A program made the translations under genes and the position numbers. This document shows, one piece after another, positions 2,218 to 35,163 of a stretch of 37,896 nucleotides of DNA. How positions within the stretch are numbered: the first letter of the stretch is position 1; the number at the start of each line of letters is the position of its first letter. Origin of the DNA: Opitutaceae bacterium. GTDB lineage: Bacteria; Verrucomicrobiota; Verrucomicrobiia; Opitutales; Opitutaceae. Location of the stretch: assembly GCA_003164715.1 (NCBI GenBank), contig PLTZ01000044.1, positions 1 to 37,896 on the forward strand, written 5' to 3'. The notes beneath the pieces were generated by a model. That model saw only the letters and a program-made list of their open reading frames with translations, did no database searches and was not told the DNA's origin.

Positions 2218-2970
2218 CTACCCGAGCAGAGAGGCAAGACCTGCGCTCAAGGTGTGTGGGACGACATCGTAGTGGTTGCGCCCGGTGAACCGCTCACAGA
2301 CGAGGCGCAGGTCCCTGAAGGGCCGTTCGTTGAGCTGGCCTTCGAGAAGGCCAAGGTCGGCGGTCATCGAGGGCGTATCGTCCGCGCCGACGCCGATGTA
2401 GAGGGCTCCCTTGAGCGTGGCCTGCCGGTCCCGCAGCTTTGAGACGAGCCCCAGGATGCTGCGGTCATCCCACCAGATGGACGGGGCGCTCGCGAGGGCG
2501 AGGTCGAAGAACGGCCTGGGCTGGAAGAGGGCGTGGAGCACGAGCAGCGACCCAAGGGAATGGCCGGCCAGCATCCTCCCCGTCTCGCGCAGCGGCAGGC
2601 GCCGCACGAGTTCCGGCCAGAGGGTCGCCGAGAGATAGTCGAGGAACCGGTCCGCATGCCCGCTGTTCGGCTCGTCCGCCGAGGCGGTTGGGGTGTAGTC
2701 GCGTCCCCGCAAATTCCCGGGCTCACCAAAGCTGGCGCCGTAACCCACCCCGATGATCGCAACCGGCGGGATTCGGCCCGCCTTCCGCAGGGACCGGGCC
2801 GCCTGGACAGCCGCGTCGAAAAGGAAGTCCCCGTCCATGAGGAGCACGGCGGCCAGCGGCTCCCGGTACGGGGAGCCGCGCGGCGCGTCGACATAGATCG
2901 TGTAGTCCGTCCCGGTCTCCCCGGAATGGGAGATGAACGCGGGCTTCGCGTCGGTGATTCTGGGTTTCAT
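2218..2970 (-). CDS. Alpha/beta-hydrolase, putative esterase (esterase D/IroE-like)
   Basis: This 250-residue protein resembles the PF00756 esterase family. The nucleophile elbow GHSLG places the catalytic serine at Ser138. An oxyanion-type segment follows the LLMDGDFLFD strand near residues 43-52, and a candidate catalytic His lies in GRNHYDVVP near the C-terminus, with acidic residues in VGADDT. Members hydrolyse carboxyl esters such as formylglutathione-type thioesters, acetyl-sugars or siderophore esters; nothing visible picks the substrate. There is no signal peptide, so it is probably cytoplasmic. Its start overlaps the end of the upstream fsr gene by 4 bp (ATGA), which implies translational coupling. 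Confidence 0.8.
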   Translation of the reverse strand: MKPRITDAKPAFISHSGETGTDYTIYVDAPRGSPYREPLAAVLLMDGDFLFDAAVQAARSLRKAGRIPPVAIIGVGYGASFGEPGNLRGRDYTPTASADEPNSGHADRFLDYLSATLWPELVRRLPLRETGRMLAGHSLGSLLVLHALFQPRPFFDLALASAPSIWWDDRSILGLVSKLRDRQATLKGALYIGVGADDTPSMTADLGLLEGQLNERPFRDLRLVCERFTGRNHYDVVPHTLSAGLASLLG

Positions 2971-4226
2971 GTCGCGGAATCGGCCTCGATGGCCTCGCGT
3001 TCAAGGCGCCGGGCGCGCCGGCTTGCGCCCTCGATGTCGGGCAGGAACCAGGCGAGCAGACCGATCAGGGGGAGATAACCGCACACGTTGAAGACAAACC
3101 CGATGCTCGTGAAATCGGCGAGGCGGCCCAGGGCCGCCGCTGCGATGCCGGCGCATCCGAAGGCGAAGCCGAAGAAGAGCCCGGAGATCATGCCGACGCG
3201 CCCGGGGACGAGCTCCTGCGCGTACACGAGGATGGCCGAGAACGCGGAGGCGAGGATTAGTCCGATGACAACGGACAGGGCGACCGTCGCCGTCAGCCCG
3301 ACATGCGGCAGGACGATTGAGAACGGTGCCACGCCAAGGATCGAGATCCAGATGACGTACTTCCGGCCGAAGCGGTCGCCGAGGTGACCTCCGAGGATCG
3401 TCCCGACCGCGATTGCCGCGAGGAAGACGAAGAGCAGGTACTGTGCCCCCTGGATGCCCATACCGAAGCGCTGGATGAGGTAGAACGTGTAGTAGTTGGT
3501 CAGGCTCACCAGGTAAAAGTATTTGGAGAAGATGAGGGCGAGCAGCACCGACAGCGCCAGGATGACGGCACTTCGGGGGAGGGTGCTCGGCGGGTGCGTG
3601 GCGGCACGTTTCCTGAAATGGGGCAGGTGATGGCTGTACCAGCCGCCGACCCGGCTGAGGAGCATGATGCCCCCCAGCGCCAGGGCAGTGAACCAGAGGA
3701 TGGAGGACCGGCCATTCGGCACGATGATCAGCGCGGCTAGGAGCGGCCCGATCGAGGAGCCGAGGTTGCCGCCCGTCTGGAACACGGATTGCGCCAGACC
3801 GTACCGGTGCCCAGCCGCCATGTGGGCCACACGCGAGGCCTCCGGATGGAAGATGGCCGAGCCCATCCCCACCAGGACGGACGAGACAAGGATCATGGTG
3901 TAGCTGCTCGCAAAGGAAAGCAGCACGAGCCCGGCGAGCGTGATCGCCATCCCGGCCGCCAGGGAGTAGGGCTTGGGATGCCGGTCGGTATACCGCCCCA
4001 CCACCGGCTGCAGGACCGACGCCGTCAGCTGGAAGCTGAGCGTGATCAGCCCGATCTGCGTGAACGTGAGGCCGAACGACTCCTTCAGAACGGGGTAGAT
4101 CGAGGGAATGAGCGCCTGGAGCGTGTCATTGATCATGTGGGACGCACTCAACGCGACCAGGATACCGAAGAAGGTCTGGCGGCCGCCGACGGGCTCGGCC
4201 GCTCCAGGTTTTGGGTCGCTTTGCAC
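2967..4226 (-). CDS. fsr: Fsr-type major facilitator (fosmidomycin-resistance family)
   Basis: This is a 419-residue major facilitator with about 12 membrane segments. Several stretches match E. coli Fsr closely as I remember it: SHMINDTLQALIPSIYP near the N-terminus, GLTFTQIGLITLSFQL, LVGMGSAIFHPEASRVA, IFSKYFYLVSLTNYYTFY and ILASAFSAILVYAQELVPGR. Family members export fosmidomycin and possibly other phosphonates; the physiological substrate here is unknown. The start is GTG at 4224-4226, because no ATG lies ahead of the first membrane segment and no strong ribosome binding site is visible. It lies 48 nt after the response regulator and overlaps the esterase by 4 bp. The drug-resistance role is an inference from the family. 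Confidence 0.92.
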   Translation of the reverse strand: MQSDPKPGAAEPVGGRQTFFGILVALSASHMINDTLQALIPSIYPVLKESFGLTFTQIGLITLSFQLTASVLQPVVGRYTDRHPKPYSLAAGMAITLAGLVLLSFASSYTMILVSSVLVGMGSAIFHPEASRVAHMAAGHRYGLAQSVFQTGGNLGSSIGPLLAALIIVPNGRSSILWFTALALGGIMLLSRVGGWYSHHLPHFRKRAATHPPSTLPRSAVILALSVLLALIFSKYFYLVSLTNYYTFYLIQRFGMGIQGAQYLLFVFLAAIAVGTILGGHLGDRFGRKYVIWISILGVAPFSIVLPHVGLTATVALSVVIGLILASAFSAILVYAQELVPGRVGMISGLFFGFAFGCAGIAAAALGRLADFTSIGFVFNVCGYLPLIGLLAWFLPDIEGASRRARRLEREAIEADSAT

Positions 4227-4274
4227 CGGACTTTGGTAGCCGGGATCGGAGGATCTGCAACCCAGACCGTGCGA

Positions 4275-4934
4275 TTATGGGGCGGGCCGTGGGCGCTGGG
4301 CCACCGGGGGCCGCTTCAGCCCGCATCGCCGCGCGAATCGGGCGGATTCGGCGCGGGACCGGAGCCCCAGCTTCCGCATGATGTTGAAGCGGTGCTTCTC
4401 CACGGTCTCCGGGGAAACCTGGAGCTGGGCCGCGATCTTGGCGTCCGACAGGGGCTCCCCGACGAGGCTCAGGATCGTCTGCTCGCGGTCCGTCAGGACC
4501 TTGTCGAAGGCGACCGGGTTGCGGCTGTGGGCCCGGCACGCCTCCATGAAGGGCATCGGAAAGTAGGTCGAGCCGCGCTCGATCGCCGCGATCGCCAGGC
4601 TCAGCTCCGAGACGGTGTTCGTGGACTTGTCGATGAACCCCTGGACGTCCGCGCGCTCGATCCTGCAGAGCAGGTAGTCGTCAAAAAAGGACGAGATCAC
4701 GAGCGTCTTGAGCAGCGCCCGCTTGCGGCGCACGGAGCGCAGCACCTCGAAGCCGTCCATGTCGGGAAGGTGGATGTCGAGGACGAGAAGATCGGGGTGC
4801 GCCGACGGCACGACAAGCAGCGCCTCGCGCCCGGTCCCGGCTTCGCCCACCACCTCGTGCCCGAGGTCCGCCGCGCACGCCTTGTGCAGGACATCGCGGA
4901 AAAGGCGCTCGTCTTCGACAATGGCGATCTTCAT
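4275..4934 (-). CDS. NarL/LuxR-type two-component response regulator
   Basis: The N-terminal receiver domain (about residues 1-120) has the acidic pair Glu7/Asp8, the phosphoacceptor Asp53 in VLDIHLPDMDGFEVL, and Lys103. The C-terminal LuxR-type helix-turn-helix (about 145-205) contains LTDREQTILSLV and VSPETVEKHRFNIMRKLGL, typical of NarL/FixJ regulators. It should be a phosphorylation-controlled DNA-binding regulator. No histidine kinase is visible in the window, so its partner must be encoded elsewhere. It lies 74 nt downstream of the asparaginase gene and 48 nt upstream of fsr, and may control this transporter/peptidase unit or simply be co-transcribed with it. The proline-rich tail is not informative. 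Confidence 0.92.
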   Translation of the reverse strand: MKIAIVEDERLFRDVLHKACAADLGHEVVGEAGTGREALLVVPSAHPDLLVLDIHLPDMDGFEVLRSVRRKRALLKTLVISSFFDDYLLCRIERADVQGFIDKSTNTVSELSLAIAAIERGSTYFPMPFMEACRAHSRNPVAFDKVLTDREQTILSLVGEPLSDAKIAAQLQVSPETVEKHRFNIMRKLGLRSRAESARFARRCGLKRPPVAQRPRPAP

Positions 4935-28877: not shown

Positions 28878-29314
28878 CCTAGACCGGCGGAATGTTCCCG
28901 AAGGGGTGGGTTCGGGAACGCACCCTTGAAAATCCCGACGGGCCTAAACGCCGCGAGGGAGTCGGACCGAGTGGTGCGGGCAATCATCATGAATCCCGAG
29001 ACGGAATTCATTCTTGGGCGACAAAAGGTTCGTACCCTCATTGGCCTTGACTCGACCGTCGGGTCTTGCCGGCCGGAGTTGGGTAGCCGTGCGCAATAGG
29101 GGGGTCAAGCAAGGTCTCGTCTCGGGGCAATTCACCTAGTGACAGCGCCCATTCGTCGTCACGTCAGCCACCGGATTGGCGCAAGGCGTTTATGGGTAGC
29201 GTATAGCGCCATCTCATGATCGAATGGCGCAAGACGGGCATTGAATCCTCAAGCATCATTGGAATGCGCCTGGAATTCGACCATCGTGGAACAACCCCAA
29301 GAAGAGGCGGCCGC
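28878..29314. other. Gene-free 437-nt stretch before the secreted gene pair
   Basis: I see no convincing coding region here. It contains the hairpin at 28894-28919 and, near the right end, an inverted repeat GCGCCAT/ATGGCGC (29206-29212 and 29224-29230, 11-nt spacer) that could be an operator for the gene at 29315. A good SD-like GAAGAGG lies at 29301-29307. No clear -35/-10 pair stands out. Confidence 0.4.
28894..28919 (+). terminator. Terminator-like hairpin after the AIM24 gene
   Basis: A perfect 9-bp stem GTTCCCGAA/TTCGGGAAC with an 8-nt loop begins 16 nt after the stop. The following sequence (gcacccttg) lacks a T-run, so termination may be Rho-assisted or the hairpin may stabilise the mRNA end. 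Confidence 0.5.
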
Positions 29315-30757
29315 ATGCGAAGAAAATCTAGAGTTGCCGTGGTGTTGATCCTGGCAGCGCTGACCCCGCTGCCGGCAAGTGTTGCGCGCGCCGACCAGGG
29401 GGAGGAGGCGGAGCAGATCGAGGCCATCTTTTCAAAGACGAGCAATGGCTACGTTCGCCTGCTGCGCCCGGACGGCTCCCTCCGGCCCGAGACCTACCGA
29501 TATGGAAAGGGCGAGTTCTGGGGAGGCGACTTCGTCGACTCATCGGTGGACCGCCTGACCGTGGACGACATCGCGCGGACAATATCGCCGGCCCTTGCAC
29601 GGCGGAGCTACGTGGCCGCCAAGGATCCAAGCTTCGCGGAGCTCTTCATCGTGATTAGCTGGGGGACGACCGTGGCGCCGGAGCATCGAACAATGGATCC
29701 CGCATATGAGGACGTCGAAAGGGGGCAGATGCGGGCCAACACGAAGCCGCATTCCCCGTTCTTCGGCAAAGCAGGCTACACGGTTGTCATGAGCGGAGTC
29801 ACCGGTGGCCTGCAGGAGGGGGCGTTGGACGGCAGCGCAAATACTTGGAACCTCGGCGGGGCGGACCCTTCCTCGGCGATCGTACCGACCCGATCGACCT
29901 CGGACGCGAACGCAAACGACAATGTCATCATCCAGGCAAGCTCCGCACTTCGGGTTGAGAACCAGATGTGGGCGCAGATAAGCCAGGAAAACGCCCGGAT
30001 GCTGGGGTACGCGTCGCTCGCCGACGCCGAGCTCCAAAGGTACCGGTACTTCGTGGTGCTGCAGGCCTACGACAACAGGACCCTCTCCCAGAAGAAGCCC
30101 AAGCTGCTGTGGGAGGCCCGCCTGAGCATCAGCGAGCATCGAAACCTTTTTGACAAACGGCTCGGGGCGTTGGCGGAGAATGCCAGCGCCTATTTCGGGC
30201 AGGACAGCAACGGACTCGTGCACAAGGCGGTGCCCGTCGGATTTGTGCGCATCGGCCAGATGAGCTCGCTGGAGTTTCCCACCGAGCCCGAGGCTGCGGC
30301 CCTGGCCGGCGATGGGGCTCATGTGGCTTACCTCAGGAGGGAGCGCTCCGAGACCGGACTGGCGGTTGTCGACGTGGACAAGCCCGAAGAGACCGTCTTC
30401 GCCAAGATACCCGGCGGCGCGGAGCCCGCCCGAATCGCATGGAGCGATCCGGAGCACATCCGGGTGACCCTCGTTTCGGCCGGCGCGGCGACCTTCGACA
30501 CAAGGTCCCTGTCCTGGTCGGCAGCGCCGGCGGACTCCGCGCCCGCCGGGCATCCGACCGCCGCGCGCGACGATGCAATGCTGGCCCGAGTGGAGGGGAA
30601 GTTTCCCCATCGAAACGTCGAGATCCTGGGTTCGGACAATCGCGGCCGGCGCTATCTCCTGGCCGTCTCGGGAACGAAGGGCCCCGCCAGGTACTACCTC
30701 TTCGACAATGAGGACGACGTACTCGTCGACGTCGGCAGATCCAGCCGAGCCCCATGA
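29315..30757 (+). CDS. Secreted protein with S9-peptidase-like propeller segment, no hydrolase domain
   Basis: From ATG 29315, with GAAGAGG 7 nt upstream, the protein has 480 residues and a signal peptide (about 1-26, ending ARA). Residues about 30-300 contain GGDFVDSSVDRLTVDDIA, AKDPSFAELFIVISWGTT and an LQAYDN segment, which I know only as a lineage-specific hypothetical family. Residues about 320-480 look like propeller blades (LAGDGAHVAYLRRE, GLAVVDVDKPEETVFA). They end in a segment like the last blade of S9 prolyl-oligopeptidase-type enzymes (RNVEILGSDNRGRRYLLAVSG, YYLFDNEDDVLVDVGRS). There the catalytic hydrolase would normally begin, but the protein stops. Its TGA overlaps the next ATG by 4 bp. 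The S9 relationship is inference. Confidence 0.65.
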   Translation: MRRKSRVAVVLILAALTPLPASVARADQGEEAEQIEAIFSKTSNGYVRLLRPDGSLRPETYRYGKGEFWGGDFVDSSVDRLTVDDIARTISPALARRSYVAAKDPSFAELFIVISWGTTVAPEHRTMDPAYEDVERGQMRANTKPHSPFFGKAGYTVVMSGVTGGLQEGALDGSANTWNLGGADPSSAIVPTRSTSDANANDNVIIQASSALRVENQMWAQISQENARMLGYASLADAELQRYRYFVVLQAYDNRTLSQKKPKLLWEARLSISEHRNLFDKRLGALAENASAYFGQDSNGLVHKAVPVGFVRIGQMSSLEFPTEPEAAALAGDGAHVAYLRRERSETGLAVVDVDKPEETVFAKIPGGAEPARIAWSDPEHIRVTLVSAGAATFDTRSLSWSAAPADSAPAGHPTAARDDAMLARVEGKFPHRNVEILGSDNRGRRYLLAVSGTKGPARYYLFDNEDDVLVDVGRSSRAP

Positions 30758-32523
30758 AACACCTGTCACGCTGGGAGCTCGCCGTGGTATTGCCCGCGCT
30801 GCACACGCTGGGTGCGGCAACCGGGGATGGCGGCCCCATCATGATGCCGCCATTCTTCGTCGAGGAGCAGCGCGCCGACGGAATCAAGTGGCTCTATGGC
30901 GCCGACGCCGACCTGCAGGTGCTTTCCGGCTGCGCCACCGATGCGACGGCCGGATTCCTCAGGCAGATCATGGAGCAGCGCAATGAGCTCCGGGCGTTCA
31001 TCCCGGATGAGTTCCTGCTCCACGCAAGCCTGCCGACGACGCTCATCGTCTTCCCGGAGTCGCTGAAGCAGACCATGGACCAAGCCCTGGCGCGGGAGCT
31101 TGAACAGGGGGACGCGGATAAGCCCCGGCGGTTCAGCCCGATGAACGACCTTCGGCTATCTGAGCCCGATTCCAGCTATATCTTCATCGTGTTTGACGAT
31201 GTCGCGCCGGGGACCGAGGCATGGCTCCGGGGAGGTGGCGGCACGCGCCCAATGAACCTTCAAACGGCCGTGCACTCTCCCGCCTATCTCCGATTCCTCC
31301 TAAAGGCGCGCGTTCCGGCGCTGCCCGACTGGTATGTGAGCGGCTGCGTGGGGCTTTATGAGACCAATGAATTCAAGGCGGACAGCGGATCCGACGGGCG
31401 GCCGTCGCAAGCCGGCCGCCTCGCATTGGACGGGGCGAGATTCGGAACGGATCCGTGGCTCTCCGAAGGCGACGCCTCGGCCCTCCGGCGGCACCCGGAT
31501 GGCGCAAGGCCGCTGGTCCCGATGCGCGAGCTCTTCGCCGCGCGGTACCCCTCCTCGAAGTCGGATGAATATCGCCGGGTCTGGGAGGCGCAGGCCGAAC
31601 TCTTTGTCCGGTGGGCCCTCTCCGGTGGAGTGGATGGGGGGCCGGAACGTCTGCGGCGCTTCGTGGAAGGCGCCACAACGCAGCGCACCACCGAGGAGTT
31701 CTTCTATTCCTGCTTTGGAATCGACTACGGCGACGCCTTGGACGCGCTCAGCGACTTTCTTCCGCACGCTGTCGAAAGGCCGCTCTACGTCGCGCCCGGC
31801 ACCGCCCCAGGGTTTCCCTCTTTTGACCTTCGGGAAGCCACCGCGGGCGAGGTGCGCAGGATCAAGGGCGAATGGTCGCGCCGGGTCCTCGGGGTGATCA
31901 AGGAAGACAATCCCGGCTCCCTTCCCCATTTCGCCGGGAAGGTTCGCGCTTCTCTGGAGGGGTCCCTGGCGCGCGGCGAACGCGATCCGGGTTTTCTGGC
32001 ATCGTTGGCCCTGTTTCGCATTCAGAACGGTAGCCCGAAGGAGGGGTTTCAATTGCTGGAGCAATATTCCGGCGCGGCGGCCGCGCGCCCGATGGCCCAG
32101 CTGGAGCTTGCGCAGCAGCACCTTCTCGAGGCGCTTGCACGGCCGACCGGGACCAAGGGGCTTCTCGGGGATGAACAAGCCTCCGAACTCCTCCGCGAAA
32201 TCTCGGCCTGCCTTAACGCGGGTCCCATCGAGTCAGCCTACAAGCTGGCCGCCAAGGTACTCGAGCACCTGGGGCGCGACCCTACGCGATCGGAGAGAAT
32301 GATGCTTGCCGACGGCGCGCGCCTGTTCCCAAGGGATTCGCAATTGGTCGTGCAGGCCGTATCCTGGGAGCTTCGGGCTGGGGAGGTCATGGGCGCATCA
32401 AGGTTGATTGAATTCGGCCTTTGGGAAGGCGCAGACCCGTCTGAGAGCCAGAAGCTCCTCGTGCTGGAGAATCTCGCGAGACAGGCCCTGGCGGCCACAA
32501 GCCCGCAAGGAGGCATTCGCTGA
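30754..32523 (+). CDS. Peptidase-MA/DUF1570-like protein lacking the HExxH site
   Basis: The 589-residue protein starts inside the previous stop (ATGA). The N-terminal part has the usual MA/DUF1570 order: an LQVLSGCATDATAGFLRQIM segment, then ASLPTTLIVFPESLKQ. The metal-site region is TAVHSPAYLRFLL (His174-Tyr178) where HExxH is expected. DWYVSGCVGLYE (192-203) replaces the usual WxxEGxAEY, and VWEAQAELFVRWAL (276-289) matches the YAQSWALVHYL helix. The second His and both Glu are missing, so it should not be an active gluzincin. The remainder is helical, TPR-like (LASLALFRIQNGSPKEGFQLLEQ). The N-terminal hydrophobic stretch could be a weak signal. It is probably a partner of the preceding secreted protein. 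Confidence 0.6.
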   Translation: MKHLSRWELAVVLPALHTLGAATGDGGPIMMPPFFVEEQRADGIKWLYGADADLQVLSGCATDATAGFLRQIMEQRNELRAFIPDEFLLHASLPTTLIVFPESLKQTMDQALARELEQGDADKPRRFSPMNDLRLSEPDSSYIFIVFDDVAPGTEAWLRGGGGTRPMNLQTAVHSPAYLRFLLKARVPALPDWYVSGCVGLYETNEFKADSGSDGRPSQAGRLALDGARFGTDPWLSEGDASALRRHPDGARPLVPMRELFAARYPSSKSDEYRRVWEAQAELFVRWALSGGVDGGPERLRRFVEGATTQRTTEEFFYSCFGIDYGDALDALSDFLPHAVERPLYVAPGTAPGFPSFDLREATAGEVRRIKGEWSRRVLGVIKEDNPGSLPHFAGKVRASLEGSLARGERDPGFLASLALFRIQNGSPKEGFQLLEQYSGAAAARPMAQLELAQQHLLEALARPTGTKGLLGDEQASELLREISACLNAGPIESAYKLAAKVLEHLGRDPTRSERMMLADGARLFPRDSQLVVQAVSWELRAGEVMGASRLIEFGLWEGADPSESQKLLVLENLARQALAATSPQGGIR

Positions 32524-32764: not shown

Positions 32765-34714
32765 TCAGATCGCTCGGAAGTCCCCGATCTTCAATGGAAA
32801 CAGCGGCCGGCCCAGACGTTTCGAACTCACGCGCTCGATTTCGAGAGCCACGGTGTAGTTGTGGGTCACAAATCGAAGCATTTCCACGCGTGGAATCGTC
32901 AGGCACCGCGTCCCGTTGTTCGCCGTCACGCTTGAATTGGGCGAGCTGTTTTGCATCAGTCCGATTTCCCCGAAGAAATTGCCGGACTTAATTGTCGCCA
33001 CAGGGCGGCCGTTTCGGGACACCTGAGCATCTCCCTGAAAGATGACAAAGAAGTCCTCAACGACCTGGCCTTCATTCAATATGCCCTGCCCCTGCGCATA
33101 GTCGGCGATGCGGGAGAGTCGCGCGAAGCGATCTATGGCCTGGAGGTGCCAGTTCTTGCAGAGCGAGATTCTCCGCAGGAACGGGCGCTTGAGTACCATA
33201 TCAGCAAGCGTCGCCTGTGAGACCCTCTTGACAATGAGCTCCTCCGCCACCGATCGCTCGACCGTGAGCAGCGTGACCGGAGTCAGCGTGCGCAGGCGAT
33301 AGTTTGGAAACCCGGGGTCCGCCAGGTCATGGAGGCCGATCAAGTTCCCTTCGCCTATCACCTGTACCTGCACCGTCCTCCCCGTCGTCAGCTTGCGGCG
33401 CAGGCTGACTTTCCCGCTTACGATCAATGAGACACACGTCGGAACGTCCCCGCCTTGGAGCGTCTTCCATGGCCCGTGCCTGGTGACCTTCATTTTCCGG
33501 ACCAGCTCGATCCTTTGGGGCGGCAGCATCCCGCTGAAGAGGGGCAGCGCCGCAAGCAACTTCAGGCGGCTGGACTCGTCAAGCGCTGGGGCATCGCGAT
33601 CGAACCAGCGCGTCTGCCAGAGACGGATTGCTTTGCGCCACAACCTGGCGCGGGAACGCACCCATGCGAAGAGTTCCCATCCTAGATAGCCTGCACACAG
33701 GACCGCAAGCGAGCCGCCGGTTCCCACGGCTATGTGCAGGCCATTGGTCCGCCAGAACGCCACGCTCCAGGGCGGCAGGTCTGAAAGGCGGCCGATCCAG
33801 CTAAGGACGACTAGGGTCCAGACGACACTGTATGCCATCCTGCACCAGGTAGTCGGATGGGAAAGCGTCCGTCTGAGCAGCCGGCCGCGGGCCACCGGCT
33901 GCAGATTGGGCGGAAAGACGAATGCATGCTCGGAGTCGCTTGGTTCTCGCGTGGCGCCGACATGGAAGAGCGTGGCAAGCCTCTCGCCAAGGATTGGACG
34001 CAGGCTGACAATAAGGCCGAGCAGGGGAAAGAACGCCCACTCGGGCCTGTGCCACGAGGCGACGCCCGCGGCGGCCGACAATGTGGCCGGCATCGCGAGC
34101 GCTATCATTAACTGGTCAACGCGCGGCAGCATCACGACGTCGGACTTGTCCGAGGTGAATCGAGGCGGGACCTTCGTCCAGCTCCACCTGGGCCGGTAGA
34201 CTTCGCCGCCCGAGCCGCGTATCATGCAGCAGGCTAGAAGCTCGCCCGCACTGAGCGCGGCGCTGAGAAGCGCCAGCCCGACCAGTACGTCGGGTACTGA
34301 CGCGGGAAGCCTGGGCCGGAAGGACAGGGCCACGGCCAGGCTCGCGAAGAAGAGCAGTCTGACGGAGCGCTTTAGGGCTCGCGATCGCACCCCCCAATGC
34401 CAGTCATATGCGAGGATGGGCTCGGGCCCAATGCCCGGCTCCAGAAGGATATTGGCCCTCAACGCCTTGAGGATCAATTCGTAGGATTCGCCCAAGGGCA
34501 GGCATTGTCTATTGCGGATCGCCTCATCCAGCATCGCTGGAACCGTCTTCGGCTTCTCGAACTGGCACAGGGTCCGCCACTGCTCGGGCGTCACGCTCAG
34601 GTAAGTCCGCGCGGTGATGTTCTTCAGCACGATGAGGCCGTTGACAGGCTCGCTTTGCCTCAGATTCGGAGCCAGGTGCAGCGTCTGCGCGGAAAGCAGG
34701 AGATTGATGTCCAT
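32765..34714 (-). CDS. M50-like membrane pseudoprotease with two cyclic-nucleotide-binding domains
   Basis: I start at ATG 34712-34714 (649 residues); a TTG at 34738 is possible but would overlap the upstream gene. Domains in order: an N-terminal winged-helix or PqqD-like part (1-95); membrane segments from about 116; an M50-like core; two cNMP domains (about 392-495 and 515-625). The M50 site reads SAGELLACC (about 155-163) in place of HExxH. GGEVYRPRWSW and SDVVMLPRVDQLMIALAMPA follow as in M50 relatives, and LRPILGERLA replaces the NPLLxxDG third-ligand motif. All zinc ligands are therefore missing. cNMP domain 2 has GNFFGEIGLMQNSSPNSSV, without the usual Arg. It follows a response regulator by a few nt. 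Confidence 0.75.
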   Translation of the reverse strand: MDINLLLSAQTLHLAPNLRQSEPVNGLIVLKNITARTYLSVTPEQWRTLCQFEKPKTVPAMLDEAIRNRQCLPLGESYELILKALRANILLEPGIGPEPILAYDWHWGVRSRALKRSVRLLFFASLAVALSFRPRLPASVPDVLVGLALLSAALSAGELLACCMIRGSGGEVYRPRWSWTKVPPRFTSDKSDVVMLPRVDQLMIALAMPATLSAAAGVASWHRPEWAFFPLLGLIVSLRPILGERLATLFHVGATREPSDSEHAFVFPPNLQPVARGRLLRRTLSHPTTWCRMAYSVVWTLVVLSWIGRLSDLPPWSVAFWRTNGLHIAVGTGGSLAVLCAGYLGWELFAWVRSRARLWRKAIRLWQTRWFDRDAPALDESSRLKLLAALPLFSGMLPPQRIELVRKMKVTRHGPWKTLQGGDVPTCVSLIVSGKVSLRRKLTTGRTVQVQVIGEGNLIGLHDLADPGFPNYRLRTLTPVTLLTVERSVAEELIVKRVSQATLADMVLKRPFLRRISLCKNWHLQAIDRFARLSRIADYAQGQGILNEGQVVEDFFVIFQGDAQVSRNGRPVATIKSGNFFGEIGLMQNSSPNSSVTANNGTRCLTIPRVEMLRFVTHNYTVALEIERVSSKRLGRPLFPLKIGDFRAI

Positions 34715-34722
34715 GGCCGAAA

Positions 34723-35163
34723 TCAGCCGGACACACAACCGCCCGTCGCTTCGCTGACGGCGGCGACCAGCTGTGCGTTTTCGAAGGGTTTTGCCAGAAA
34801 TCTGTGTTCCCGGAGGTCATCCGGCCACCACGACACATCAGTGAGATGACCGCTGATGAATATTACGCAAAGGCCGTCGATACGGGCGCACATGCGGCGC
34901 GCAAGCTCCAGTCCGTCCACGCGTGGCATCATGACATCGCATATGGCGACAGCCGGAGGACGGGACGCGGCATCCAGGATGTCCATGGCGTGCGCCGCAC
35001 CGTCCGCTGTCCTCACCACCCAGCCCATGCCCCGAAGAACATGGTCTATAAGGCATAGGAAGGAGATCTCGTCATCGACGACAAGAATCCACGGTGCGTC
35101 AGGGCTTGTTGAGGCGGACTCAATGGGCGCACACGCCGGCGGATCTGTCGGTTCTCGTTCCAT
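34723..35163 (-). CDS. Single-domain response regulator (receiver only)
   Basis: The 146-residue protein has a 24-residue extension and then a complete receiver domain: acidic pair Asp30/Asp31, phosphoacceptor Asp76 in AICDVMMPRVDGLEL, Ser104 at the Thr/Ser switch in FISGH, and Lys125 in FLAKPF. There is no output domain. Such CheY-like proteins act by protein contact or pass phosphate in relays. Its stop is 8 nt ahead of the pseudoprotease ATG (or overlaps it if TTG 34738 is used), so the two are almost certainly one operon. No histidine kinase is nearby. Confidence 0.92.
   Translation of the reverse strand: MEREPTDPPACAPIESASTSPDAPWILVVDDEISFLCLIDHVLRGMGWVVRTADGAAHAMDILDAASRPPAVAICDVMMPRVDGLELARRMCARIDGLCVIFISGHLTDVSWWPDDLREHRFLAKPFENAQLVAAVSEATGGCVSG

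Follow-up and report, generated by a model that had tools for sequence, protein, structure and literature searches.

The gene analysed here encodes, as judged from its sequence, a protein of the pseudoprotease kind and not an active member of peptidase family M50. With a probability of roughly 60% we read it as a bacterial pseudo-site-2-protease that serves as a membrane-embedded signalling or scaffold protein and not as an enzyme, whose membrane part is set by a receiver through a module of cyclic nucleotide-binding (CNB) type, and whose input was replaced in this lineage. The gene lies in a stretch of 37,896 nucleotides from an Opitutaceae bacterium (the window; genome of 3.79 Mb, 98.8% complete), and its features are collected in Table 1 together with the adjoining receiver gene.

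Table 1. Position, strand and supporting basis of the features discussed (numbering of the window).
Feature	Position	Strand	Basis or remark
Pseudo-M50 / tandem CNB membrane protein gene	32765..34714	minus	649 aa, ATG at 34714, stop ending at 32765; full-length homologues
PqqD-like N-terminal domain, residues 1-95	34430..34714	minus	hhalign match of residues 1-98 to the aligned PqqD-M50 proteins; predicted to be cytoplasmic
Degenerate M50 core, residues 112-349, six predicted membrane spans	33668..34381	minus	Averaged hydropathy and loop K/R over 40 homologues; hhalign
GELLA (157-161) in place of HExxH, without zinc ligands 1 and 2	34232..34246	minus	Profile alignment
RPILGERLA (239-247) in place of NPxxxxD, without ligand 3 but with Pro240	33974..34000	minus	Profile alignment
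CNB-A (first cyclic-nucleotide-type domain), residues 386-505	33200..33559	minus	Pfam; phmmer matches at 386-510 to solved structures of Crp type
Degenerate phosphate-binding cassette of CNB-A (GNLIGLHDLADP)	33314..33349	minus	No Glu at residue 461 or Arg at residue 470 in any of the 19 members of the window's clade
CNB-B (second cyclic-nucleotide-type domain), residues 510-636	32807..33187	minus	Pfam, best stretch 539-617
CNB-B cassette, Glu583 invariant, Arg absent	32924..32983	minus	Alignment of 40 homologues
Stand-alone receiver (CheY-like) gene	34723..35163	minus	8 bases upstream of the pseudo-M50 ATG; Pfam Response_reg E 1.4e-16

Kinship to M50 proteins and loss of the zinc ligands

Searches of relatives and of the phylum yielded 40 complete homologues, found in the family and order to which the window belongs and, beyond its class, in two genomes. 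A contig scan with the window protein as sole query gave two loci, and viral contigs scanned with the family alignment returned 23 pattern stretches with no relative among them. Close full-length homologues share the start methionine with the window protein, and since the third codon position varies most in a comparison with six relatives, the reading frame is under constraint. Omitted from the set were two loci cut by contig ends (L008 in G006, L013 in G010) and one with an in-frame stop (L032, the same locus as L004, in G029). The latter is an otherwise conserved homologue with an open receiver gene, in which a TAG at codon 299 represents either a sequencing error or a recent pseudogene.

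The sequence-only reading had described an M50-like membrane protein in which all zinc ligands are lost while the surrounding landmarks persist. Pfam calls M50 (PF02163) in 0 of the 25 family members scanned, and Pfam and NCBIfam together find no M50 match and nothing else above cut-off in residues 1-380 of the window protein; membership therefore rests on profile-profile comparison. As comparators we used 30 loci obtained from a 145-genome sample of the phylum, in which a search with a single protein, L047, was positive in 31 genomes. Their frames were selected by HExxH, the NPxxxxDG motif is found in 30/30, and they are presumably annotated as peptide zinc metalloprotease proteins. The single comparator scanned by Pfam shows PqqD (below cut-off, E 0.0032), M50 and HlyD.

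Residues 1-375 of the family align with these comparators at E 2.7e-11 (hhalign, joining residues 8-283). The N-domain alone reaches E 3.8e-7, and residues 100-375 alone reach E 9.9e-7 over 121 columns. Block shuffles never attained the real score (0/100 in each of four hhalign tests, 0/400 in total), reversed alignments gave E 0.24-0.56 against the comparators, and an MFS family (25 rows) gave E 0.2. Matched directly with that MFS family, our family obtained E 1.7e-4 over 44 columns (2.7e-4 for residues 1-375), so that the membrane-only similarity, which surpasses that of the best unrelated control by roughly two orders of magnitude, is not huge. Nonetheless, the M50 kinship is firm, because the N-domain matches independently of the membrane part. 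RseP-type M50 proteins (12 rows) match the same comparators less well (E 1.5e-5) than the membrane part of the family does, and between the family and RseP-type M50 no profile match was seen (E 0.27-0.29). This comparison makes the PqqD-M50-type proteins of the same phylum the nearest relatives that retain an intact zinc site.

Within the alignment HEFGH stands ungapped over GELLA and NPLMRFDG over RPILGERL, and the landmarks GGEV and D..M..R fall in register with the PqqD-M50-type proteins, just as had been claimed. The membrane-only alignment begins just past the HExxH place, and the ungapped placement of HEFGH over GELLA is taken from the longer one. An intact HExxH in homologues at this position would have spoken against the proposed ligand loss. 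None of the 40 carries a histidine at either HExxH ligand place or an aspartate at the third-ligand (NPxxxxD) place, and no HExxH occurs anywhere in the first 400 residues of the 40 frames. Histidine is also missing from the HExxH place in the omitted L032 and in L033 (from the same G006 contig as L008). Of the features of an active M50 or site-2 protease, the family accordingly has the homologous membrane core, with neither HExxH nor the NPxxxxDG/LDG third ligand. The absence of proteolysis, which these losses would entail for the pseudo-M50 protein, can be regarded as well supported.

The former histidine positions have been filled in an orderly way. The first is G, A or S in 40/40 homologues (Gly in 35) and the second in 36/40 (Ala in 25); when 127 membrane columns are ranked for small residues, they tie for top and for third, respectively. 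Pro240 of the former NPxxxxD motif is retained in all 40. This orderly substitution argues for a stable pseudoprotease family rather than decay, and the small residues at both positions look like a GxxxA helix-packing pattern.

Hydropathy averaged over the 40 homologues indicates six spans. Lys and Arg per non-span stretch amount to 13.2 (residues 1-112), 0.7, 4.2, none measurable between spans 3 and 4, 7.5, 0.8 and 6.8, a positive-inside pattern from which both protein ends are predicted to be cytoplasmic. The comparators show seven main hydropathy peaks plus weak single-column ones. Both groups share the order of PqqD-like domain, M50 core and C-terminal partner domain, as well as spans 1-6 and the loop motifs. 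The comparators differ in keeping HExxH and NPxxxxDG (30/30 loci) and a seventh main span, whereas the window family has tandem CNB domains, no ligands and six spans; HlyD was seen in the one comparator scanned. On the predicted topology, the lower span count would agree with the difference in C-terminal partner, which is an exported HlyD part in the comparators and a cytoplasmic CNB part in the window family. AlphaFold2 models had a mean pLDDT of 35.6 for the whole protein (from a three-row alignment of the window protein, L032 and L033) and 49.7 for the N-domain.

Cyclic-nucleotide-type domains and the upstream receiver

Pfam recognises two stretches of PF00027 in the window protein (E 2.3e-21), in agreement with the two domains reported earlier, and detects the profile in 25/25 members scanned. 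The second domain was said to be without the phosphate-contacting Arg, and this holds for the whole family: Arg is found in 0/40 homologues at residue 592, against 40/40 that keep Glu583. The canonical cassette is general among CNB domains, and on this basis we call the change in CNB-A a loss.

A tree built from 536 columns, CNB-A excluded, splits the rows into the window's clade (19) and a sister clade (21) with 100/100 support. By regular expression, the canonical CNB-A cassette is present in 17/40 homologues, all of them outside the window's clade (17/21 against 0/19). Counted by column, the cassette Glu is found in 18/21 rows outside and 0/19 inside, and the same numbers apply to the Arg at its place, which stands one residue off in five rows of the window's clade. 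Within this clade L, A, V or S stands where the Glu would be, with a His directly after it in 15/19 (residues 461-462, positions 33329-33334), a possible new site. Because neither CNB domain of the window protein keeps a canonical phosphate-binding cassette with Glu and Arg, gating by cyclic nucleotides is unlikely here. Of the earlier picture of a membrane-embedded, non-proteolytic, possibly ligand-gated sensor, the first two parts are upheld by the missing ligands, the M50 kinship and the six predicted spans with cytoplasmic ends; the gating by cyclic nucleotides is not.

For the sister clade such gating through CNB-A is plausible, given its intact cassettes. Class III cyclase domains (PF00211) occur in 36/38 family-bearing genomes, with three matches in the window genome, and cyclic nucleotides may therefore be available to this clade, although the presence of cyclases does not separate the two clades. 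Two NCBIfam models, TIGR03896 (cyc_nuc_ocin) and that of family 2B encapsulin shell proteins, share CNB domains with the window protein. Their matches are limited to the CNB part and lie far below the cut-offs (25.5 of 161 bits and 41.1 of 400 bits), with residues 1-380 unmatched. A reading as a defence system was rejected: the PADLOC matches (Pycsar TIR effector and cyclase models) are confined to CNB-B, and Pfam sees no effector domain.

A gene that the sequence-only reading did not mention, a stand-alone receiver, adjoins the pseudo-M50 gene upstream on the same strand. It has the phospho-Asp, acidic pair, Ser/Thr and Lys of receivers, and the phospho-Asp and Lys are kept in 20/20 receivers aligned (including L132 and the partial locus L013). 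In 14 of 18 neighbourhoods compared, a receiver is the adjacent upstream gene, and nothing else recurs at a constant place; the other shared clusters listed (frames overlapping the gene or the receiver aside) were scattered and consisted of an ABC ATPase shared by four loci and a further gene shared by three. Altogether 19/40 homologues have a same-strand receiver frame directly upstream. This count includes L132, whose neighbour is a long multi-domain protein, so the number of stand-alone receivers is 18, corresponding to 18/19 of the window's clade and 0/21 outside it. In the one exception within the window's clade, L136 (G026), the 1845 bases ahead of the gene hold no receiver, and for L080 and L081 the absence is based on about 1.4 kb. 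L132 itself (G095, sister clade, about 2628-4761) lies directly behind a frame of 711 residues which by eye reads REC-PAS-GGDEF-EAL, of c-di-GMP type.

The conserved upstream receiver indicates another input than cyclic nucleotides, and receiver control, though unproved, is the better hypothesis here. Fisher's test associates receiver and cassette state with p 7e-8 (L132 scored receiver-positive), a value that overstates the association because the rows are related; an independent-pairs test finds two to three pairs (p = 1). Receiver presence and loss of the CNB-A cassette count as a single event, since both map to one branch, and with its midpoint root the tree fits gain as well as loss. Five of the 40 homologues (L136, L125, L126, L130 and L132) have neither a stand-alone receiver nor an intact cassette, hence the cassette is also lost without this partner. 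Each clade is represented by one copy in two genomes, G028 (L059/L125) and G360 (L124/L140); the CNB-A cassette of the sister-clade copy is intact in G360 and not in G028. Such two-copy genomes point to separate roles of the clades.

Proposed mechanism and competing explanations

In the mechanism that we favour, the pseudo-M50 and receiver genes would be co-transcribed and all soluble domains would reside in the cytoplasm. Once phosphorylated by a kinase, the receiver would dock on the CNB module, most likely on the remodelled CNB-A, and the docked receiver would control which state the membrane part adopts. A peptide or membrane protein may still be held, though no longer cut, by the PqqD-like domain together with the emptied M50 groove. 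For the sister clade the input would probably be a cyclic nucleotide, replaced by the receiver in the window's lineage; we propose this replacement because the sister clade, without the receiver, mostly keeps the canonical cAMP/cGMP cassette in CNB-A. A bolder version, offered tentatively and at less than even odds, sees a bacterial counterpart of the iRhom type: an emptied intramembrane protease fold whose HExxH has become a GxxxA-like packing helix, with cytoplasmic sensors of cyclic-nucleotide type at the place taken by an export domain in its kin, rewired in one lineage from cyclic nucleotides to a phosphorylated single-domain receiver. This would be a two-component switch on a dead site-2 protease.

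The same observations might be explained by a membrane sensor whose CNB domains bind cAMP or cGMP. The two Pfam domains, the cyclases in nearly all carrier genomes and the 17 intact CNB-A cassettes are in line with this, and non-canonical ligands are compatible with the sequence; with CNB-A devoid of Glu and of Arg at its place throughout the window's clade (Arg one off in five) and CNB-B devoid of Arg in every homologue, we consider it rather unlikely. A role as regulator of an active protease, be it as dominant-negative or as chaperone-like partner, has a similarly small chance. Such a role has a parallel in the iRhoms and their effect on rhomboids, and Pfam finds M50 proteins in 29/29 genomes scanned, the window genome included; however, a search for subfamily members with an intact site, which would be the obvious clients in an iRhom-like role, came back empty in 26/38 carrier genomes, the window genome among them, and profile comparison does not link the family to RseP-type M50.

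It might also be argued that the protein belongs to a separate six-span membrane family with M50-like motifs by chance, as the missing Pfam M50 matches and the direct match to the MFS control would allow. This is very unlikely given that the matches of the N-domain and of the membrane part are independent of each other and collinear, that the loop motifs align, and that neither reversed nor shuffled alignments come near the real scores. Least probable of all, and ruled out at the level of the family, is a decaying pseudogene of a former M50 exporter component: lost ligands and the in-frame TAG in G029 are what decay would produce, but 40 complete homologues across two deep clades, the variation concentrated at third codon positions and the conserved neighbour speak against it.

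Known pseudoproteases and a neighbouring gene

To our knowledge, pseudoproteases of intramembrane protease families are known mainly from eukaryotes. EGY3 of Arabidopsis presumably has no CNB domains and no receiver partner and belongs to another S2P subfamily. The iRhoms are animal proteins of an unrelated (serine) protease class. Like the window protein, EGY3 is an S2P homologue without zinc-binding motif, although from the chloroplast of a plant, and this pseudoprotease is reported still to have a biological role (PMC10978774). The iRhoms resemble our case as members of an intramembrane protease family with lost catalysis and a regulatory role, namely inhibition of rhomboid-dependent signalling (PMC3149277). 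A search of non-subscription papers found nothing that joins site-2 protease with cyclic nucleotide-binding domain, PqqD with M50 and HlyD, or peptidase M50 with cyclic nucleotide-binding, response regulator and Verrucomicrobia. The family thus offers a putative bacterial S2P-like pseudoprotease in two sister clades distinguished by their pocket and their partner, with a receiver gene as candidate input and two genomes holding copies of both clades. This makes accessible the questions of what role an emptied site-2 protease fold has and how CNB domains switch input.

Elsewhere in the window, an unnamed protein encoded at 30754-32523 (plus strand, just behind 29216-30757, also plus) contains an LPxW(F/Y) stretch, which we take to resemble the one that follows HExxH in gluzincin peptidases. 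HExxH is absent from this protein and from 11 aligned homologues. Matches to it occur in 17/38 genomes, with six in the window genome (itself included), and it possibly represents a second degenerate metallopeptidase-like family.
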